Assembly (NCBI GenBank): GCA_944392755.1
Contig: CALXXT010000002.1
Coordinates: 1 to 64,000, forward strand
Length of the DNA: 64,000 nucleotides
Source of the DNA: an uncultured Sutterella sp.
Lineage (GTDB): Bacteria; Pseudomonadota; Gammaproteobacteria; Burkholderiales; Burkholderiaceae_F
Direction: 5' to 3'
Shown here: positions 1,400-54,584 of the stretch, one piece after another
Layout: the number at the start of each line of letters is the position of its first letter
Numbering within the stretch: position 1 is the first letter of the stretch
Notes under the pieces: model-generated
What the model saw: only the letters and a program-made list of their open reading frames with translations
Databases searched by the model: none
What the model was told of the DNA's origin: nothing
Program-made: the position numbers and the translations under genes

Positions 1400-2323
1400 T
1401 CATAAAATGCACGAAAGCAGGGATGCTGCACTGAAAATTAAGCAGTACTCAAGTTCTAGCACAACACATTGGAACATCACGGGACTCAGCATCTTGGGTG
1501 GTGTGCTCTGTAGGGCTCTCGCAATTTTCAATGCTTTTGGGGCAGTTGCGCCCAGCAATAAAAACCACCAACCGTCAAGTGCAATGGCAAGCGCTATAGC
1601 TCCAATAAAAGGAAATGTTAGGAGCGTTCGGATCAAAATATAGAAAGTACAGGGCGAAAGTAGGACAGCAAGCGTTTGTCGGTTGACGCTGGCGTCGTGT
1701 TCTCGATCCCTGAAATTATTGACTGCCAGTACCGATGCGGCTAGGCAACCTAGGGACGTTCCCAAAATCCAAGCCGATGTGGAGAAGCTATGCGTCTGGA
1801 GATAATAGGTGCCGAGCGTGGCGATGAGGCCGAAGAAAATCAGCACGGCAAATTCTCCAAATGGAGTGTAGGCAATAGGTTTGGGACCGCCCATGTAACA
1901 ATAGGCTGCCACGATGGAAGAAATGCCGATGGCTGCGTATGCGTAACCGCCGTAGATAATGAGCGGAACTGTATTGAAGAGAGCTAGAGCCACGGCAACT
2001 AGTAGTCCCAACCTAGCTTCCCGCATGCTCAGCCACCCGTTGGCGGTTGCTCTTGGAAGTCCGCTTCTGTTGCCAATTTCGGCCTTACGATCCGTATATC
2101 CGATGTCATTCTGCATGTTGGTGATTGTTTGCATGAGAATGGCAAGCGTCAATGTCAGGAGAAAGACCGTCGCGTCAAATTGATGACTTTCCGCATAAGC
2201 TAAGCTGGTAGCGGCAACGACTGGAGCACAGGCTACGCCCAAGGTTTTTGGGCGAATCAAAGCCATCCATGCGGCAAATGCTCCAGGTTTGATTGACTGA
2301 GTTGCGGTACTTCGTTCTTTCAT
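1400..2323 (-). CDS. menA: 1,4-dihydroxy-2-naphthoate polyprenyltransferase
   Basis: A 307-residue polytopic membrane protein of the UbiA prenyltransferase superfamily. The first Asp-rich motif is at about residues 69-80 (NMQNDIGYTDRK). The MenA-typical YCYMGGPKPIAYTPFGE stretch is at about 141-157. The second Asp-rich motif is at about 202-210 (NNFRDREHD). These are the residues that bind Mg2+ and prenyl diphosphate. MenA joins the isoprenoid tail to DHNA, giving demethylmenaquinone in the cytoplasmic membrane. Its presence means the cell makes menaquinone, fitting the anaerobic respiratory genes further right. The gene overlaps ybeD by 4 bases (ybeD stop at 2320) and appears to be last of a dacA-like/ybeD/menA minus-strand run. 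In most betaproteobacteria ybeD is followed by lipB-lipA instead. Confidence 0.92.
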   Translation of the reverse strand: MKERSTATQSIKPGAFAAWMALIRPKTLGVACAPVVAATSLAYAESHQFDATVFLLTLTLAILMQTITNMQNDIGYTDRKAEIGNRSGLPRATANGWLSMREARLGLLVAVALALFNTVPLIIYGGYAYAAIGISSIVAAYCYMGGPKPIAYTPFGEFAVLIFFGLIATLGTYYLQTHSFSTSAWILGTSLGCLAASVLAVNNFRDREHDASVNRQTLAVLLSPCTFYILIRTLLTFPFIGAIALAIALDGWWFLLLGATAPKALKIARALQSTPPKMLSPVMFQCVVLELEYCLIFSAASLLSCIL

Positions 2324-48041: not shown

Positions 48042-49151
48042 TCATCGCCTGCTTTGCCAGTGGATCGACGAACCGAGCTGATTGAGTCCGAGCCTGCGGC
48101 CTGCAATTCTGACGATGTCCGACTCGATTTTGGTATTTGATTCCGCGCCGACTTCGGTGCCGGATTTGTTGTCGTAGAGTTGATAGGACGAACGCGTAGC
48201 CTGTGGGGTAATGTTTGGCATGACGACATTGCACCCGCTCATGATGCCGAGAATGCGTCCGTTGGGTTCGAGCGTCTCAAGCGCCGTGGCCGCCGCAATG
48301 TTGACGTCCCGAAGCACAAGGCGTGTAGCGGCGATCATATTGAGCGAAAGTCTCAGGAGTGGGTCGTGGGCCATCATTCCGCAGTCGACCATGTCGGCGC
48401 CCTTGCTGAGGAGATAGGGACCCATTCCGATCATGTCCGCATCTATAGTCTGGAATGTTCGGATGTCTTGGACGAGATCCTCAACGGTTTGCCCAGGCAG
48501 GCCGATCATCACCCCAGTGCCAACCTGGTAGCCAGCTCGCCGCAGGTTACGGAGTGCCGTCATGCGGTGTTCGAGATTCTTTTCATGCCGTCCCGGCGTG
48601 CAGTGTAATTTGTGGAAGAGTTCCGGATTGCTTGTTTCGATGCGGAGCAGATAGCGGAGACCGTCAGGATTTCCACTCGCTTCCGCCCATTCCGCATAAA
48701 CCTCGTACGGCTGCTCGCCGAGTGAAAGTGTGATCCCGAGTCCGAGAGGAAGTGTGTCGGAAACCGTTCTTTCGTGAATTTCCCGCAGAAGGCCGCTGAT
48801 CCATTCCACCCAGTGCCGGTCCGTACGTTCACCCGCTTGAATGGCAATGGAGCCGTAGCCTGCGCGCGCAGCCGCAAGCGCGCAGCCGATCACGACATGC
48901 CGTGGAAGCGTGTATCGGCTTACTGCATGGTTGCTCTTGCGGATGCCGCAGTAGCGGCAGTTGGCCGTACAGATGTTGCTGATCTCGATGAGACCACGTA
49001 GGTACACTTCATCGCCGAGGAGATCCGTCGTAAGTTCATAGGCTCGCTCCTGAAGCCGCTTGACGTCTTCAGGGGCTTTAAGTCTGAGCATCCGAGCGAT
49101 GTCGTCGTCGGAAAAGGTCGTTTGGCGAAGGAAGTCGAAATTGGTCGCCAT
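48042..49151 (-). CDS. hydE: [FeFe]-hydrogenase maturation radical SAM protein HydE
   Basis: A 369-residue radical SAM enzyme. LRGLIEISNICTANCRYCGIR carries the Cx3Cx2C cluster (Cys61, Cys65, Cys68). Later conserved parts are AGYGSIAIQAGERTD, LRIETSNPELFHKLHC, VGTGVMIGLPGQTVEDL and a BATS-type end with MSGCNVVMPNITPQATRSSYQLYD. HydE works with HydG and HydF to build the 2Fe subcluster of the H-cluster. It lies 4 bases downstream of hydF, and hydA is in the same block, which removes doubt versus BioB or PylB. No hydG is found in the window. Confidence 0.92.
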   Translation of the reverse strand: MATNFDFLRQTTFSDDDIARMLRLKAPEDVKRLQERAYELTTDLLGDEVYLRGLIEISNICTANCRYCGIRKSNHAVSRYTLPRHVVIGCALAAARAGYGSIAIQAGERTDRHWVEWISGLLREIHERTVSDTLPLGLGITLSLGEQPYEVYAEWAEASGNPDGLRYLLRIETSNPELFHKLHCTPGRHEKNLEHRMTALRNLRRAGYQVGTGVMIGLPGQTVEDLVQDIRTFQTIDADMIGMGPYLLSKGADMVDCGMMAHDPLLRLSLNMIAATRLVLRDVNIAAATALETLEPNGRILGIMSGCNVVMPNITPQATRSSYQLYDNKSGTEVGAESNTKIESDIVRIAGRRLGLNQLGSSIHWQSRR

Positions 49152-49155
49152 GGGG

Positions 49156-50403
49156 TCACTTCCTGGAGGCTTTCAGATATGCTTCGAGTGCGTCGGGGTG
49201 GCAGGCCAGCACGCGCTCAAGGATGCCCTGAAGGTAGCAGATTGCCAAGCCGTAGTTCGTCATGGGGACTCCCTGCATGGATGCACGTCTGAGGCGCATC
49301 AGCAGGTGGCGGCGAGTGACGACACAGCCGCCGCATTGGATCAAGACGGCGTAGGGCGACAGATCTTCCGGAAAGTCCTTTCCGACGGAGATCTCGAAGT
49401 TCAATTTGACGCCCGTGTGTTCGCGCAACCACTTCGGTATTTTGATTCGACCGATGTCCTCAGGTTGGGGTAGGTGACTGCAGGATTCGCAGATAAGCAC
49501 TCGATCGCCGTCGCGGAGTCGTCCCAAAGCGGCAGCTCCTTCTGCGAGTGCGATTAGATCGCTTTTGGCGTAGGCGAGCTGAATCGAAAACGTTGTGAGC
49601 GGGATACGGCTCGGAGTTTGGCGGGCCACCTCCAGGACGGCTTGAGAATCCGTCATGATGAACTTGGGATCCTGCCGCAGTTCGCTCAACGCTTCCGCAA
49701 CTCGGTCTTGCTGTACGACGAAACATTTGGCATGCGTGTCGAGTAGCTCTCGAATTGCCTGAACTTGCGGAAGGATGAGGCGCCCCTTGGGAGCCCCGGT
49801 ATCAATCGGCGTGACGAGCAGGACGGTATCGCCCGCTTCGGCCAGATGTCCGGCTAGAGGGCGATCCGGATCTATTTGAGTTTGAACGATTCGGATGACG
49901 GCTTGGCGCAACTCGTCAATACCTCGGCCGGTATGCGCGTCGCAGAGAACGACAGGTAGACCGAGTGATTTCGCTTCAGCTACTGCTGCCTGGTTTGGTC
50001 GATGAAGGTCGGCTTTGTTGAGTGCGATGACGCAGGGGGTTTTCAGGGTCTGTGCGGCATGAATCAGTTCGATGTCGTCCTGTTCGAGTCCCGATGCTGC
50101 GCCGACGACAACCGCGATGTCCACCCATTCGAGGATTGCCTTCGAGCGTCGAACGCGCGCAGCGCCAAGGCTGCCTGCATCGTCGTCGACGCCGGCAGTG
50201 TCAATGAAGACCACAGGACCGATCGGCGCGAGTTCGCAGGCTTTTTCCACCGGATCGGTGGTGGTTCCTGGGACGTCGGAGACGATGGAGATTTCTTGAT
50301 TGGCCAGACGGTTAACTAGCGAACTCTTGCCGGCATTGCGGCGGCCGAAAAGGCCGATGTGGATGCGAAGCCCCTTGGGCGTTCCGAGTGCGACGGGGAT
50401 CAT
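49156..50403 (-). CDS. hydF: [FeFe]-hydrogenase maturation GTPase HydF
   Basis: A 415-residue scaffold protein. N-terminal GTPase: GLFGRRNAGKSSLVNRLA (G1, about 18-35), the TTTDPVEKACEL switch, FIDTAGVDD (G3) and ALNKADLHRP (G4). C-terminal cluster-binding part: CESCSHL (about 305), RIKIPKWLREHTG, and VLIQCGGCVVTRRHLLMR. The family pattern is CxH and then HCxxC; here the second part reads QCGGC, so one potential His ligand is Gln. Its ATG lies only 18 bases past the stem of the terminator that follows the cytochrome b gene, so it is expressed by read-through or from a promoter inside the upstream gene. No Shine-Dalgarno is evident. Confidence 0.93.
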   Translation of the reverse strand: MIPVALGTPKGLRIHIGLFGRRNAGKSSLVNRLANQEISIVSDVPGTTTDPVEKACELAPIGPVVFIDTAGVDDDAGSLGAARVRRSKAILEWVDIAVVVGAASGLEQDDIELIHAAQTLKTPCVIALNKADLHRPNQAAVAEAKSLGLPVVLCDAHTGRGIDELRQAVIRIVQTQIDPDRPLAGHLAEAGDTVLLVTPIDTGAPKGRLILPQVQAIRELLDTHAKCFVVQQDRVAEALSELRQDPKFIMTDSQAVLEVARQTPSRIPLTTFSIQLAYAKSDLIALAEGAAALGRLRDGDRVLICESCSHLPQPEDIGRIKIPKWLREHTGVKLNFEISVGKDFPEDLSPYAVLIQCGGCVVTRRHLLMRLRRASMQGVPMTNYGLAICYLQGILERVLACHPDALEAYLKASRK

Positions 50404-50476: not shown

Positions 50477-51151
50477 TTACTTTTCGATGTTGGTGCGAAC
50501 TACGTCGCGCTCAAGCCAAAGCGGGGCGTGGTGCTCGGCGGCTTCCCAGGAGATCGTGCCCGGGCCGAGACGCCAGATCCCCTTGAAGTGCTCCATCGAG
50601 AGCAACGCGAGCGGGATGTGGGCGCAAACAACCAGCACCGAAATGATAATCGAGCCCCAAACGTGGAAGTAGAACATCCACTTGTAGACGAACTTGCCGG
50701 TGACCGGAGCGCCGAGCCAGAGCATCCAACCCGTCACCGCGAGGGCGGCAATCATGCCCATGAAGAGCAAGTAAGAGGCCTTCTGACCGCCGTTGTAGCG
50801 ACCCTGCGGAGGAACTTCCACCGGTCCGAACGGGATCTTGAAGAAGCGACGAGGATAGCCGCCGAAGTTGCGGAACCAGTAGATCGTGTTGCGGTCCCAT
50901 TCCAGGCAGGCGCGCATAATGAGCGCGAAGCGGTCGGGGGCAATCACGATGAAGCCGAGCAGGTTGAACGTGAAGATCGCGCCGAGAATCAAGTGGGCAA
51001 TCATTGTGTACTCTGCCGCCTCGTTCGAGGGATTGCAGAAGAAGACGTACATGCCGGTGAAAAGCAGGGCGAACCACGTCACGGCGTTGACCGAGTGGAA
51101 CACCTTGTCCGGAGCATGGAATCGAAGGATGCGGTCGTTAGCGTTAGACAT
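50477..51151 (-). CDS. FdnI-type cytochrome b subunit of the hydrogenase
   Basis: A 224-residue four-helix membrane cytochrome b resembling the gamma subunit of formate dehydrogenase-N. It has RILRFHAPDKVFHSVNAVTWF, YTMIAHLILGAIFTFNLLGF, FNGG-like YNGGQKASYLLFMGMIAALAVTG, and FYFHVWGSIIISVLVVCAHIPLAL. It ends LGPGTISWEAAEHHAPLW. Conserved His residues in helices 1, 2 and 4 are suitable heme ligands. No formate dehydrogenase alpha or beta gene is near; it directly follows hydA-hydB and overlaps hydB by 8 bases. The likely role is to anchor the periplasmic hydrogenase and pass electrons to menaquinone (inference from operon structure). Confidence 0.88.
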   Translation of the reverse strand: MSNANDRILRFHAPDKVFHSVNAVTWFALLFTGMYVFFCNPSNEAAEYTMIAHLILGAIFTFNLLGFIVIAPDRFALIMRACLEWDRNTIYWFRNFGGYPRRFFKIPFGPVEVPPQGRYNGGQKASYLLFMGMIAALAVTGWMLWLGAPVTGKFVYKWMFYFHVWGSIIISVLVVCAHIPLALLSMEHFKGIWRLGPGTISWEAAEHHAPLWLERDVVRTNIEK

Positions 51152-51497
51152 GAGAAGCCTCCGTCATGGCCAGCGTGGAGCGCTGGTAGTAGTGCGTATG
51201 AAGCAGTTCATGCATCGTGTGGTCCACGGGTTTCGTGCCCATGTCCTTATAGACAGACATCACCACTTCGTTCTGGTGCGAGCAGGCAAGCCCCTTCGAC
51301 TGGCAGAGCTTGTCGTCCTGGTAGAGGCCGGCCTGGCGGGCCAGAATGATTTGACCGCGGCGAGCAATCATATCGCCGATGGCCCAGCCGCAAACAACGG
51401 CGGCGCCGACGCAGAGGCCGCACACCTTCAGGAAGCCGCGACGACCCAGGATGAGAGCCGCAGGGCGTTCTGCATATGAATAGTTTTCAGACAACAT
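51144..51497 (-). CDS. hydB: [FeFe] hydrogenase small subunit with Tat signal
   Basis: A 117-residue protein. A twin-arginine motif GRRGFLKVCG (Arg19-Arg20) and a hydrophobic helix precede the Fe_hyd_SSU domain: ILARQAGLYQDDK, SHQNEVVMSVYKDMG, and DHTMHELLHTHYYQRS. This matches Desulfovibrio HydB (RRGFLK, ASQDN, HDLLHTH). It wraps around the large subunit and supplies the export signal, so the HydA-HydB complex should fold in the cytosol and cross by Tat. It lies 21 bases after hydA and overlaps the cytochrome b start by 8 bases. Confidence 0.9.
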   Translation of the reverse strand: MLSENYSYAERPAALILGRRGFLKVCGLCVGAAVVCGWAIGDMIARRGQIILARQAGLYQDDKLCQSKGLACSHQNEVVMSVYKDMGTKPVDHTMHELLHTHYYQRSTLAMTEASHV

Positions 51498-51518
51498 ATC
51501 GTTAACCTCGCGTCTCCA

Positions 51519-52874
51519 TTACACCCGAAGCGGCAGCGGCATCGTCGGATGCAGCCAAGCCGTGCCGGCAGATTGAACGGGCTGACCGCCGCCGTTGACG
51601 CAGCCGCCCGGGCAGTTCATCACTTCGATGAAGTGATAGCGGTTCTTGTCGACCTGAATGCGGCGGAGCACTTCCTTCAGACCTTGGTTGGCGCCGTTCA
51701 CCACACAGACGCGCACGTCGAACTTCTTGCCGCCGAGAGCCTTGATCGGCACCGGAATCGTGGCTTCAACGATTGCGTTGTCATGACCGCGGACGACTTC
51801 GATGTCGACATTCTTGAGTTCTTCGCCGGAAAGGGCGAAATAGGCCGTACGGAGTGCGGCCTCCATCACACCACCCGAGCAGCCGAAAATCGTGCCGGCG
51901 CCGGAGTAAACCTCAAGAGGCTGACGCTCGCGCGTCTTCGGCATGTGGAGCGGATTGATGCCCTTGCGCCGCATAAGTTCAGCAATGTCGCGAGCCGTGA
52001 GCGATGCATCGATGTCCTGGAAGGGCGGCGTATCCTGCGGAATGTCTTTGTTGGCGATGAGATAGCGCCAAGCCGAATTCATTTCGGGGCGCGACGCTTC
52101 AAAGATCTTGGCCGTGCAGGGCGTCACGGAAACGAAGTAAACCTTGCGAGGATCACACTTGAGCACGTGCTTGGCGGCCCAGGTCTTAGCGAGCGCGCCG
52201 CCCATCTGCAGGGGGGACTTCGCTGTGGAGATGTGCGGAAGGATGTCCGCGTGATAGGTTTCGGCGTTCTTGACCCAAGCCGGGCAGCAAGACGTGAAGT
52301 GCGGGAACGGGTGCTTGGCCTGTTCATTCACTTCCGGACTGCGTTCGCCGAGGATCCAGTAGCGGATCTTCTGCACGAATTCCGTGCCTTCTTCAATGAT
52401 GGTCTGGTCGGCCGTGCTGTTGCAGTCGTAGACCACGAAGCCAAGCTCTTCGAGCGCGTTGACCATCTGTTCGGTCGAAAGCGCGCCAGGTTCGCCGCCG
52501 AATTCTTCGCAGAGCGAAACGCGGACGGCCGGGGAAGGCTGAGCGACGACGATGCGATCCTTCGAGTCGAGCACGCGCTCGACTTCGTCGACGAAGCTCA
52601 TCTGTTCGATGGCGCCAAACGGACAGGCGATGAGGCACTGACCGCAGTAGAGGCAGGCGTCTTCATTAATTTCGTGCTTGGCGCCGATGCCGCCGGTGAT
52701 GGCATCAACGGGGCAGAACTTGCGGCAGGTGTCGCAGCCGACGCAGTTGTCCTTGTTGATGTGGATGATCCCGCGCAGTTCTCCTTTGCGCAGGTTGCCT
52801 GCATAAGCAGGGCCATTTTCCCCGTGGGCGTTGTCGCCCGGAAGGAAGGTATGGACCTTGATCGTGTGGGACAT
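51519..52874 (-). CDS. hydA: [FeFe] hydrogenase large (H-cluster) subunit
   Basis: A 451-residue enzyme. Two [4Fe-4S] ferredoxin sites: Cys44/47/50/54 and Cys74/77/80/84. H-cluster motifs are L1 TSCCPAW (194-200), L2 TPCTAKIFE (251-259, Cys253), and L3 EVMNCPGGC (417-425, Cys421 and Cys425) followed by VNGGGQP. Cys196 is the expected proton-relay residue. L2 normally starts Met-Pro-Cys; here Met is Thr251. There is no signal peptide, consistent with co-export by hydB. It resembles the periplasmic dimeric enzyme of Desulfovibrio and should oxidise or produce H2. Conserved GAGTIFGCSGGVMEAALR supports the fold. GGAG lies 8 bases before the ATG. First gene of hydA-hydB-cytochrome b. Confidence 0.95.
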   Translation of the reverse strand: MSHTIKVHTFLPGDNAHGENGPAYAGNLRKGELRGIIHINKDNCVGCDTCRKFCPVDAITGGIGAKHEINEDACLYCGQCLIACPFGAIEQMSFVDEVERVLDSKDRIVVAQPSPAVRVSLCEEFGGEPGALSTEQMVNALEELGFVVYDCNSTADQTIIEEGTEFVQKIRYWILGERSPEVNEQAKHPFPHFTSCCPAWVKNAETYHADILPHISTAKSPLQMGGALAKTWAAKHVLKCDPRKVYFVSVTPCTAKIFEASRPEMNSAWRYLIANKDIPQDTPPFQDIDASLTARDIAELMRRKGINPLHMPKTRERQPLEVYSGAGTIFGCSGGVMEAALRTAYFALSGEELKNVDIEVVRGHDNAIVEATIPVPIKALGGKKFDVRVCVVNGANQGLKEVLRRIQVDKNRYHFIEVMNCPGGCVNGGGQPVQSAGTAWLHPTMPLPLRV

Positions 52875-53270: not shown

Positions 53271-54584
53271 CTACATGTCTTCCTCACGAAGCGGCGCCCG
53301 GAGTTCGGCGCGCACGTTGTCCATGGCCGAATAAAAAGCCTTCATCATGACAAGGCCCAGGAATTTGCCAGCATCCGTAACGACGATGCGGTCCGGGTCG
53401 TTCGGGTCGTCTTGAATGGCTCCAGCAAGCCTCAGTCCCATCATTTCCTTGAAGAGGTAGCGGTCGACGTTGATGCCGTGTACATCGCGGAAGTATTTGC
53501 GCGAAAGCCGGTGCGAAAAAAGCCCGAGCATCAGGCGGTATTGGGCGATCGCATGATGATCAAACGTGCGCTTGCGTTCGACGCCCGTATGCCCCGCGGC
53601 AATACGCTCGCCGTAACGGCGAAGGCTGAAGGTGTTTACGTAAAGGCTGTCGTTGAGGAAGCTGAAGGCTCCTGAGCCGACGCCCAAATATTCGTCGTAG
53701 TCAACGACGTATTCATCGAACCCTTCGTCGTTGGTTCGTCCGAAAGTCCACGACGTCAATTGGCGGTAGTGTGAGCCGAGCGTATCGAGAATGACTCGGT
53801 ACTGATCGGCGAGTTCGTTGCCGGGAGCTGCAATGACGTTCTTCACGCTTTTTTTAGTTTGCGACGTCACCATGAGCGGATAGGTGGTTACCTGACGAGG
53901 ATTGAGCTTGAAGATCTTCTCCATGTCATCGTGGAGAATGTCGAGATTCTGACCTCGGAATCCGAACATCATGTCAATGTTGCATGTCGGGAAGAGCTCT
54001 TGCGCGTACTGGAGGCGTTCGAAGATTTCAGCACCCGAACCGAACTTTTCATACCGTTCCGATAGCTTGAGGATGTCGTCGTTAAAGCTCTGCACGCCGA
54101 TAGACATGCGGTCCACGAGTCCCTTCAGGTTGCGGAAAGCGGGCGTCGTGATGATCTGCGGATCCGTTTCGCAAGAAATTTCCTTAATTGTCGGGAAGAG
54201 CTTTTTCGCGTATTCGAGCGTTTTGATGAGTTCGTCCTCAAGGATGGTGGTTGTTCCGCCGCCGACATACATGGAGTGGAACGTGTAGCCGAGCGAATGC
54301 ACGTAATCCATTTCCCGGCGGAGATTGACGAAGTACTCTCGAGCCTTCCACTCCTTGAAAAGAAAGCGGTGAAATGTGCAGTAGGAGCAGAGCGTCTTGC
54401 AAAAAGGCACGTGCGCATAAAGCAGGTACTTGTGCCCCTCCTGAGGTTCGGGCGGCCGCTGGAGAATAACGGGATCGCAGTGCAGGTATCGCTTGGTGTA
54501 GTAGTCCATTACCCGGTCCGTGAAGCTGAGCATCCACTGCGGAAGCAGTTTGCGGGGGCGGGGTACGTAGTGCGAAGCTGTCAT
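53271..54584 (-). CDS. HemN/HemW-like radical SAM protein
   Basis: A 437-residue radical SAM protein. The cluster motif is HVPFCKTLCSYCTFHRF with Cys62, Cys66, Cys69. Then come MYVGGGTTTILEDELIK (the GGGTP-like SAM motif), EISCETDPQ, VDRMSIGVQSFNDDILKL, and NIDMMFGFRGQNLD. A HemN C-terminal domain (about 340-420) includes VTDAGKFLGLVMMKAFYSAMDN. It lacks the fourth Cys of true HemN (CxxxCxxCxC), so coproporphyrinogen oxidase activity is doubtful. HemW-like heme chaperones and HemN-like methylases/cyclopropanases are alternatives. It follows an acyl-CoA ligase gene by 54 bases on the same strand, and hydA comes next. Confidence 0.75.
   Translation of the reverse strand: MTASHYVPRPRKLLPQWMLSFTDRVMDYYTKRYLHCDPVILQRPPEPQEGHKYLLYAHVPFCKTLCSYCTFHRFLFKEWKAREYFVNLRREMDYVHSLGYTFHSMYVGGGTTTILEDELIKTLEYAKKLFPTIKEISCETDPQIITTPAFRNLKGLVDRMSIGVQSFNDDILKLSERYEKFGSGAEIFERLQYAQELFPTCNIDMMFGFRGQNLDILHDDMEKIFKLNPRQVTTYPLMVTSQTKKSVKNVIAAPGNELADQYRVILDTLGSHYRQLTSWTFGRTNDEGFDEYVVDYDEYLGVGSGAFSFLNDSLYVNTFSLRRYGERIAAGHTGVERKRTFDHHAIAQYRLMLGLFSHRLSRKYFRDVHGINVDRYLFKEMMGLRLAGAIQDDPNDPDRIVVTDAGKFLGLVMMKAFYSAMDNVRAELRAPLREEDM

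Follow-up and report, generated by a model that had tools for sequence, protein, structure and literature searches.

A probable HydABC-type membrane-bound [FeFe] hydrogenase for periplasmic H2 oxidation to menaquinone in an uncultured Sutterella

The 64,000-nucleotide stretch of DNA analysed here (hereafter the window; contig CALXXT010000002.1 of an uncultured Sutterella sp., positions 1 to 64,000) carries a locus that, judged from sequence, very probably encodes a HydABC-type membrane-bound [FeFe] hydrogenase, which would oxidise H2 in the periplasm and pass the electrons to menaquinone via HydC (rough probability 0.82). The enzyme is likely an H2:quinone oxidoreductase whose iron-sulfur clusters deliver electrons directly to heme. 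Its subunits are encoded on the minus strand by hydA (51519..52874; 451 amino acids, Pfam and PDB matches), the large subunit of a group A [FeFe] hydrogenase; hydB (51144..51497; 117 amino acids, Fe_hyd_SSU), a small subunit with a twin-arginine translocation (Tat) motif (R19-R20), a hydrophobic helix and a Y-x-Y-x-E box in the n-region; and hydC (50477..51151; 224 amino acids, PF01292), a probably diheme cytochrome b of the FdnI fold. The hydB stop and the hydC start have 8 nt in common, and the three reading frames are open with their diagnostic residues kept. A preliminary description of this DNA had reported a hydA without visible signal, a Tat-bearing hydB and an overlapping cytochrome b gene, and all three open reading frames (ORFs) were found where it had placed them. 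Its functional guess, a periplasmic [FeFe] hydrogenase that reduces quinone through a diheme cytochrome b without an iron-sulfur beta subunit, is a good one and fits the gene order, the ligands and the fold. The novelty that it attached to this build is not upheld.

HydA matches the Pfam family Fe_hyd_lg_C (PF02906) over its cut-off (E=3.8e-68), together with 4Fe-4S domains, and scores 368.9 bits against TIGR02512, under the cut-off of 405.95. The top PDB match is 8rtg_A ('Periplasmic [Fe] hydrogenase large subunit', E=1.5e-92), which we take to be from Desulfovibrio. By the roles that we assign from solved [FeFe] hydrogenases, C44, C47, C50, C54, C74, C77, C80 and C84 bind 4Fe-4S clusters, and C197, C253, C421 and C425 bind the H-cluster. 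The H-cluster cysteines are invariant in 81/81 HydA sequences, and the signature ligands of group A are thus present; the F-domain cysteines are kept in 79/81 and C84 in 80/81. No signal is visible by eye at the HydA N-terminus. Three further positions differ between loci with an adjacent cytochrome gene (linked) and those without (unlinked). The C-terminal W440 was observed in 79/79 linked and 0/17 unlinked rows, G327 in 74/79 versus 0/17, and T343 in 77/79 versus 0/17. These counts exclude from the linked set the loci L123 and L140, which, though linked, have T343 and lack G327 and W440. The alignment of the HydA tail is uncertain, and the Trp of L088 sits one column off position 440.

HydB (Fe_hyd_SSU, E=1e-16) carries an RRGFLK motif and, after it, a hydrophobic segment, and the arginine pair is conserved in 79/79 aligned proteins (alignment counts omit the HydB ORFs of L068 and L140 and the cytochrome ORFs of L069 and L088, which were not recovered). 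The HydB comparison comprised distinct proteins of less than 230 amino acids with the RR motif, 78 with an adjacent cytochrome and 18 without; L069 and L196, at contig ends, were left undecided. In 76/78 linked proteins, 35 residues separate RR from a conserved Arg in the folded part, and the exceptions, L123 and L140, have 38 residues and a VFA or AFA site. In the unlinked proteins, the distance is 38 in 13, 46-48 in four and 35 in one. An AxA-like site ([AVT]x[AS]; 12 residues upstream of the conserved Arg were scanned) is found in 11/78 linked versus 14/18 unlinked proteins, and the other four unlinked proteins have VYS or TFA sites farther upstream. Conversely, an n-region box ([YFHL]x[YFL]xE), whose Glu is invariant in a 47-row alignment, occurs in 73/78 linked and 0/18 unlinked proteins. 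Mean peak hydropathy over 19 residues is 1.69 in the linked and 1.14 in the unlinked set. The window HydB has the linked-type spacing and the box and has no AxA-like site, and its AlphaFold2 model contains one helix, spanning residues 19 to 67. A less strict signal-peptidase motif used at first (50/75 linked versus 19/21 'unlinked' proteins, three of the latter, L062, L076 and L101, being misassigned by too narrow an adjacency rule) was rejected because it matched inside the transmembrane helix.

These sequence patterns suggest that, in cytochrome-linked operons, HydB may keep its Tat signal as a membrane anchor; there is no evident reason for a signal that gets cleaved off to conserve such an n-region box. 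For the main linked clade we lean slightly towards a fuller proposal, in which the signal would never be cut and would form a permanent transmembrane helix on HydC, with the Y-x-Y-x-E box in the cytoplasm and a fixed three-subunit interface via HydA Trp440. Such a helix would replace the one given by the beta subunit of formate dehydrogenase N (FDH-N) or by the hydrogenase-1 small subunit at the other end of the chain, and would represent an independent docking solution. The retained anchor predicts full-length HydB in the membrane. As far as the literature matches listed show, the linked-type spacing, the n-region box and the rarity of the AxA-like site are new, and no paper on a retained HydB signal is among those matches. 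The spacing of 35, the box and Trp440 together give a sequence test by which soluble periplasmic [FeFe] hydrogenases may be told apart from quinone-linked ones. All these features, the other HydA positions included, were picked after the sequences had been viewed, and the contrasts are descriptive. They mostly follow one deep HydA split, with four Nitrospirota-type rows as the only second case (this label and 'Desulfovibrio-type' were given by similarity), and the counts therefore overstate independence; the cytochrome label changes twice on the HydA tree, and an independent-pair test has two pairs (p=1).

HydC belongs to PF01292 (E=2.7e-16). Its profile retrieved from the PDB, up to E=1, only the FdnI chain 1kqf_C (E=1e-23), to which the AlphaFold2 model (predicted local distance difference test score 93.4) is similar at a template-modelling score of 0.73; the next, weak fold match is the hydrogenase-1 cytochrome b 4gd3_A (E 0.058). 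The candidate heme ligands H19, H53 and H163 are present in 79/79 cytochromes and H178 in 78/79. Fold model and sequence indicate that HydC is probably a diheme cytochrome b. The nearest NCBIfam model, that of the formate dehydrogenase gamma subunit (TIGR01583), gives 49.2 bits and does not reach its cut-off of 115.85; the [NiFe] hydrogenase cytochrome b model TIGR02125 gives 26.1 bits (cut-off 121.5, likewise not reached), and the neighbours of HydC are [FeFe] HydAB.

A survey of the gene triplet, proposed in the preliminary description, found it to be widespread. A search of named genomes yielded 159 HydA relatives. Of the best 80, which were retained, 78 have a recognisable cytochrome gene behind hydAB; of the other two, L069 lies at a contig edge and L088 (Nitrospiraceae) lacks the gene. 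HydB was found by tblastn in 79/80 loci, and that of L140 was added by profile. The unit occurs in Sutterellaceae, Campylobacterota, Negativicutes, Syntrophales, Shewanella, Ferrimonas, Marinobacter and one Archaeoglobaceae metagenome-assembled genome (MAG), and such units are already in print; the build is not the unusual one that had been claimed. The rarity of the enzyme is a relative matter: HydA of the window type (E below 1e-200) was detected in 34/67 searched genomes of the window's family and in 0/83 genomes of other families of the order. Across the phylum, the small-subunit family was found in 4/398 evenly drawn genomes, the window's own included, so the unit is rare phylum-wide and common in this family. 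Roughly every second genome searched in this single betaproteobacterial family thus encodes a respiratory-type [FeFe] hydrogenase. The family's members come largely from animal guts by record titles, and the literature matches listed hold no published H2 physiology for them.

In the HydA tree (a quick method with support from the Shimodaira-Hasegawa-like approximate likelihood ratio test only; L061, L187, L190, L201 and L210, in which no ORF of the HydA size range was present, and L211-L217, which duplicated other records, were left out), one group (support 99) unites the 22 Sutterellaceae-group rows, of which three bear the NCBI label Burkholderiaceae. The three Campylobacterota HydA are sister to this group (joint branch 100), whereas Shewanella HydA is far from Sutterella although it belongs to the same phylum. 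The window HydA is 63-65% identical to the Campylobacterota HydA (L083-L085), and the window cytochrome is 49-51% identical to theirs versus 25-28% to the Shewanella rows. From these sequence relations, the whole unit was likely transferred between Sutterellaceae and Campylobacterota lineages. The HydA proteins most similar to that of Sulfurospirillum cavolei are listed, in the available part of one report, as those of Campylobacter, Sutterella, Thermodesulfobium and Parasutterella (PMC4794192). In the Bacillota loci L123 and L140, a cytochrome b of this family accompanies a soluble-branch HydA and a HydB that looks cleavable, which suggests more than one gain or loss of the cytochrome by HydAB. 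Two further loci were observed: a second hydA-hydB-hydC copy in a Sutterella genome (L047, G002) has no hydF, hydE or HemN-like gene in its 15-kb stretch, and the Archaeoglobaceae MAG contig (L086) carries the three-gene unit with an adjacent hydE, by archaeal acquisition or binning error.

In the proposed mechanism, HydA and HydB would fold together in the cytoplasm, where the H-cluster would be inserted by HydE and HydF, encoded here, and HydG, encoded elsewhere in congeners. The pair would then be exported through the HydB Tat signal, by analogy with Desulfovibrio HydAB, in which the small-subunit Tat signal exports the pair, and HydB may be held in the membrane next to HydC by its unprocessed signal helix. 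Electrons from H2 oxidised in the periplasm would run from the H-cluster through the HydA 4Fe-4S clusters to the periplasmic-side HydC heme and, as the FdnI fold and the conserved histidines imply, via the second HydC heme to menaquinone. With protons set free on the outside and consumed in quinone reduction, the complex would work as a redox loop. The absence of a beta subunit poses no difficulty, because the small subunit of E. coli hydrogenase-1 feeds its cytochrome b directly, without a beta subunit. A possible acceptor branch for H2-derived electrons would involve the only molybdopterin oxidoreductase detected in the MAG (L036, G000 contig 41), which is nearest to the TorA/BisC S/N-oxide reductases and under the curated cut-offs. 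A frame with a CxxCH motif precedes its gene.

Several points weigh against this assignment. Among the literature matches listed, no hydrogenase activity, localisation or complex was measured for any Sutterella. HydA2 and HydB2 of Sporomusa ovata lie in a membrane band with hydrogenase activity, but, according to the passages available, the band also held a [NiFe] hydrogenase subunit (PMC9430772), and its activity is thus not assigned. HydB of L188, which has no adjacent cytochrome within 7 kb, shows the linked-type spacing of 35 (with a TYA site), and the linked HydB of L123 and L140 look cleavable, so the anchor is not needed in every lineage. The confidence of the HydB model is modest (68.7), and no HydG match over cut-off was found in the source MAG, which is 89.8% complete.

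The same complex could run in reverse, with menaquinol driving H2 evolution for electron disposal at low H2, which we consider rather unlikely. Other gut microbes keep H2 low, in favour of such a flow, but making H2 from menaquinol is energetically uphill and calls for reverse electron transport. In Syntrophomonas wolfei, syntrophic growth on butyrate raises hyd2 transcripts about 20-fold over growth on crotonate, and the proteins occur in a membrane hydrogenase band, as the available passages report (PMC5101538); the Syntrophomonadaceae locus L123, however, belongs to the other HydA branch and has a cleavable-looking HydB.

A soluble periplasmic HydAB that works with a cytochrome c, like the Desulfovibrio pair, and can dispense with HydC is very improbable. 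Among solved proteins, HydA is indeed closest to the periplasmic large subunit of the Desulfovibrio kind. Yet a heme c motif (CxxCH) is present in 0/7 of the proteins encoded between hydE and the acyl-CoA ligase-like gene, both included, HydB combines the linked-type spacing and n-region box with the lack of an AxA-like site, and HydA has the linked-type W440.

Two maturation genes, hydF (49156..50403, minus strand; H-cluster maturation GTPase, TIGR03918, 502.3 bits, cut-off 325.55) and hydE (48042..49151, minus strand; H-cluster radical S-adenosylmethionine (SAM) maturase, TIGR03956, 271.9 bits, cut-off 254.6) lie beside hydABC. The missing HydG match, and the lack of HydG in some other genera of the family, could mean that the enzyme is unmatured in this strain through loss of hydG. 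We give this little credence: the MAG is incomplete (1.74 Mb in 96 contigs, compared with 2.2-3.2 Mb for 11 congeners), hydG is present in 11/11 congeners searched, away from the hydABC locus, and hydE, hydF and the HydA ligands are intact. As a separate observation, ten genomes of the family that are 94-100% complete carry HydE and [FeFe] hydrogenase genes and no HydG (G012, G029, G040, G048 and G052 of one genus; G016, G031 and G042 of a second; G023 and G035 of a third). Their best HydG matches reach at most 45 bits, versus at least 800 for real HydG, a result also obtained by profile in nine of the ten. HydE is over cut-off in 9/10 (G031 is just under), and the HydE and HydF motifs look intact where read. 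No substitute for HydG that could account for the CO and cyanide of the H-cluster was seen by eye beside the hydE and hydF genes or the second hydrogenase in 16 stretches of HydG-less relatives, and no paper among the literature matches listed describes natural HydG-less maturation.

That HydC belongs to a formate dehydrogenase and adjoins hydAB by chance, a case that the preliminary description had raised against itself, has a negligible probability: the formate dehydrogenase gamma model is the nearest to HydC and the FDH-N alpha subunit is over cut-off in 10/10 congeners searched, but HydC scores under the gamma cut-off, in 4/4 related loci read FDH-N alpha has another PF01292-family cytochrome b no more than about 1 kb away, FDH-N alpha is not over cut-off in the (incomplete) source MAG, and the position of hydC after hydAB in 78/80 loci across phyla settles the question in practice. 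Overall, FDH-N alpha is over cut-off in 12/14 genomes searched, the source MAG and G019 being the exceptions. The only other PF01292 match in the MAG is on contig 25, where the preceding ORF overlaps it by four bases and is iron-sulfur-protein-like by eye.

The minus-strand gene order at the hydrogenase locus is acyl-CoA ligase-like, HemN-like radical SAM, hydA, hydB, hydC, hydF and hydE. The HemN-like gene (53271..54584, minus strand; PRK08629 family, 609.6 bits, cut-off 355) lies upstream of hydA in 17/20 stretches from the family, and we would guess that its product supplies heme for the cytochrome. The menA gene, for a menaquinone biosynthesis prenyltransferase, was noted earlier in the window and is confirmed there in an unlinked context (1400..2323, minus strand; TIGR00751, 160.9 bits, cut-off 102.15), which speaks for the proposed menaquinone acceptor. 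A promoter and terminator scan gave 0 and 5 hits versus shuffle means of 1.6 and 5.4, nothing above shuffles. The source MAG falls in the Sutterella group, and all eight of the named loci with the closest HydA (76-89% identity) carry the label Sutterella. A second [FeFe] hydrogenase of the same MAG, with 605 amino acids (L001, 817-2634 of G000 contig 71), has a fused small-subunit domain and no separate small subunit. The frame before it resembles a GltD-type oxidoreductase by eye, similar pairs occur in relatives, and this enzyme is probably NAD(P)H-linked.

The HydABC-type unit is already known and widespread in other anaerobes. The window locus resembles S. ovata HydA2B2C2 in its HydA, Tat-bearing HydB and cytochrome b (HydC2 is called diheme), with a proposed role as donor to quinone, although the quinone in the passages available is ubiquinone and not menaquinone (PMC9430772). 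The deep HydA split leaves the two Sporomusa acidovorans loci (L104 and L112) together with the window; they differ from it in their HydA branch, and their cytochromes b are 28-29% identical to that of the window. We take S. wolfei HydC2 to be a cytochrome b, a point on which the available passages are silent. HydA2, HydB2 and HydC2 of S. wolfei, the last by one peptide, were found in one membrane band with hydrogenase activity, and, unlike the role proposed for the window enzyme, Hyd2 is linked there to H2 formation (PMC5101538, as available); L123 groups with soluble-type HydA. The cluster of Sulfurospirillum cavolei and Campylobacter shares the order large subunit, small subunit and 'membrane component', the last in the cytochrome's place as also in Shewanella, and the available passages put hydG inside this cluster, whereas it is away from the locus in Sutterella (PMC4794192). 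Like the Desulfovibrio periplasmic HydAB (1hfe, 8rtg), the window enzyme has a two-subunit catalytic unit with the Tat motif on the small subunit. The partner of the Desulfovibrio pair is cytochrome c3 and not a cytochrome b, and among HydB proteins with no adjacent cytochrome b, 17/18 lack the 35-residue spacing and 18/18 the n-region box. Finally, HydC resembles E. coli FdnI (1kqf_C) of FDH-N in its cytochrome fold and heme-ligand histidines. FdnI is partnered by an iron-sulfur beta subunit with a C-terminal transmembrane helix; here, in contrast, the HydA clusters and the N-terminal helix of HydB would fill the roles of that subunit.

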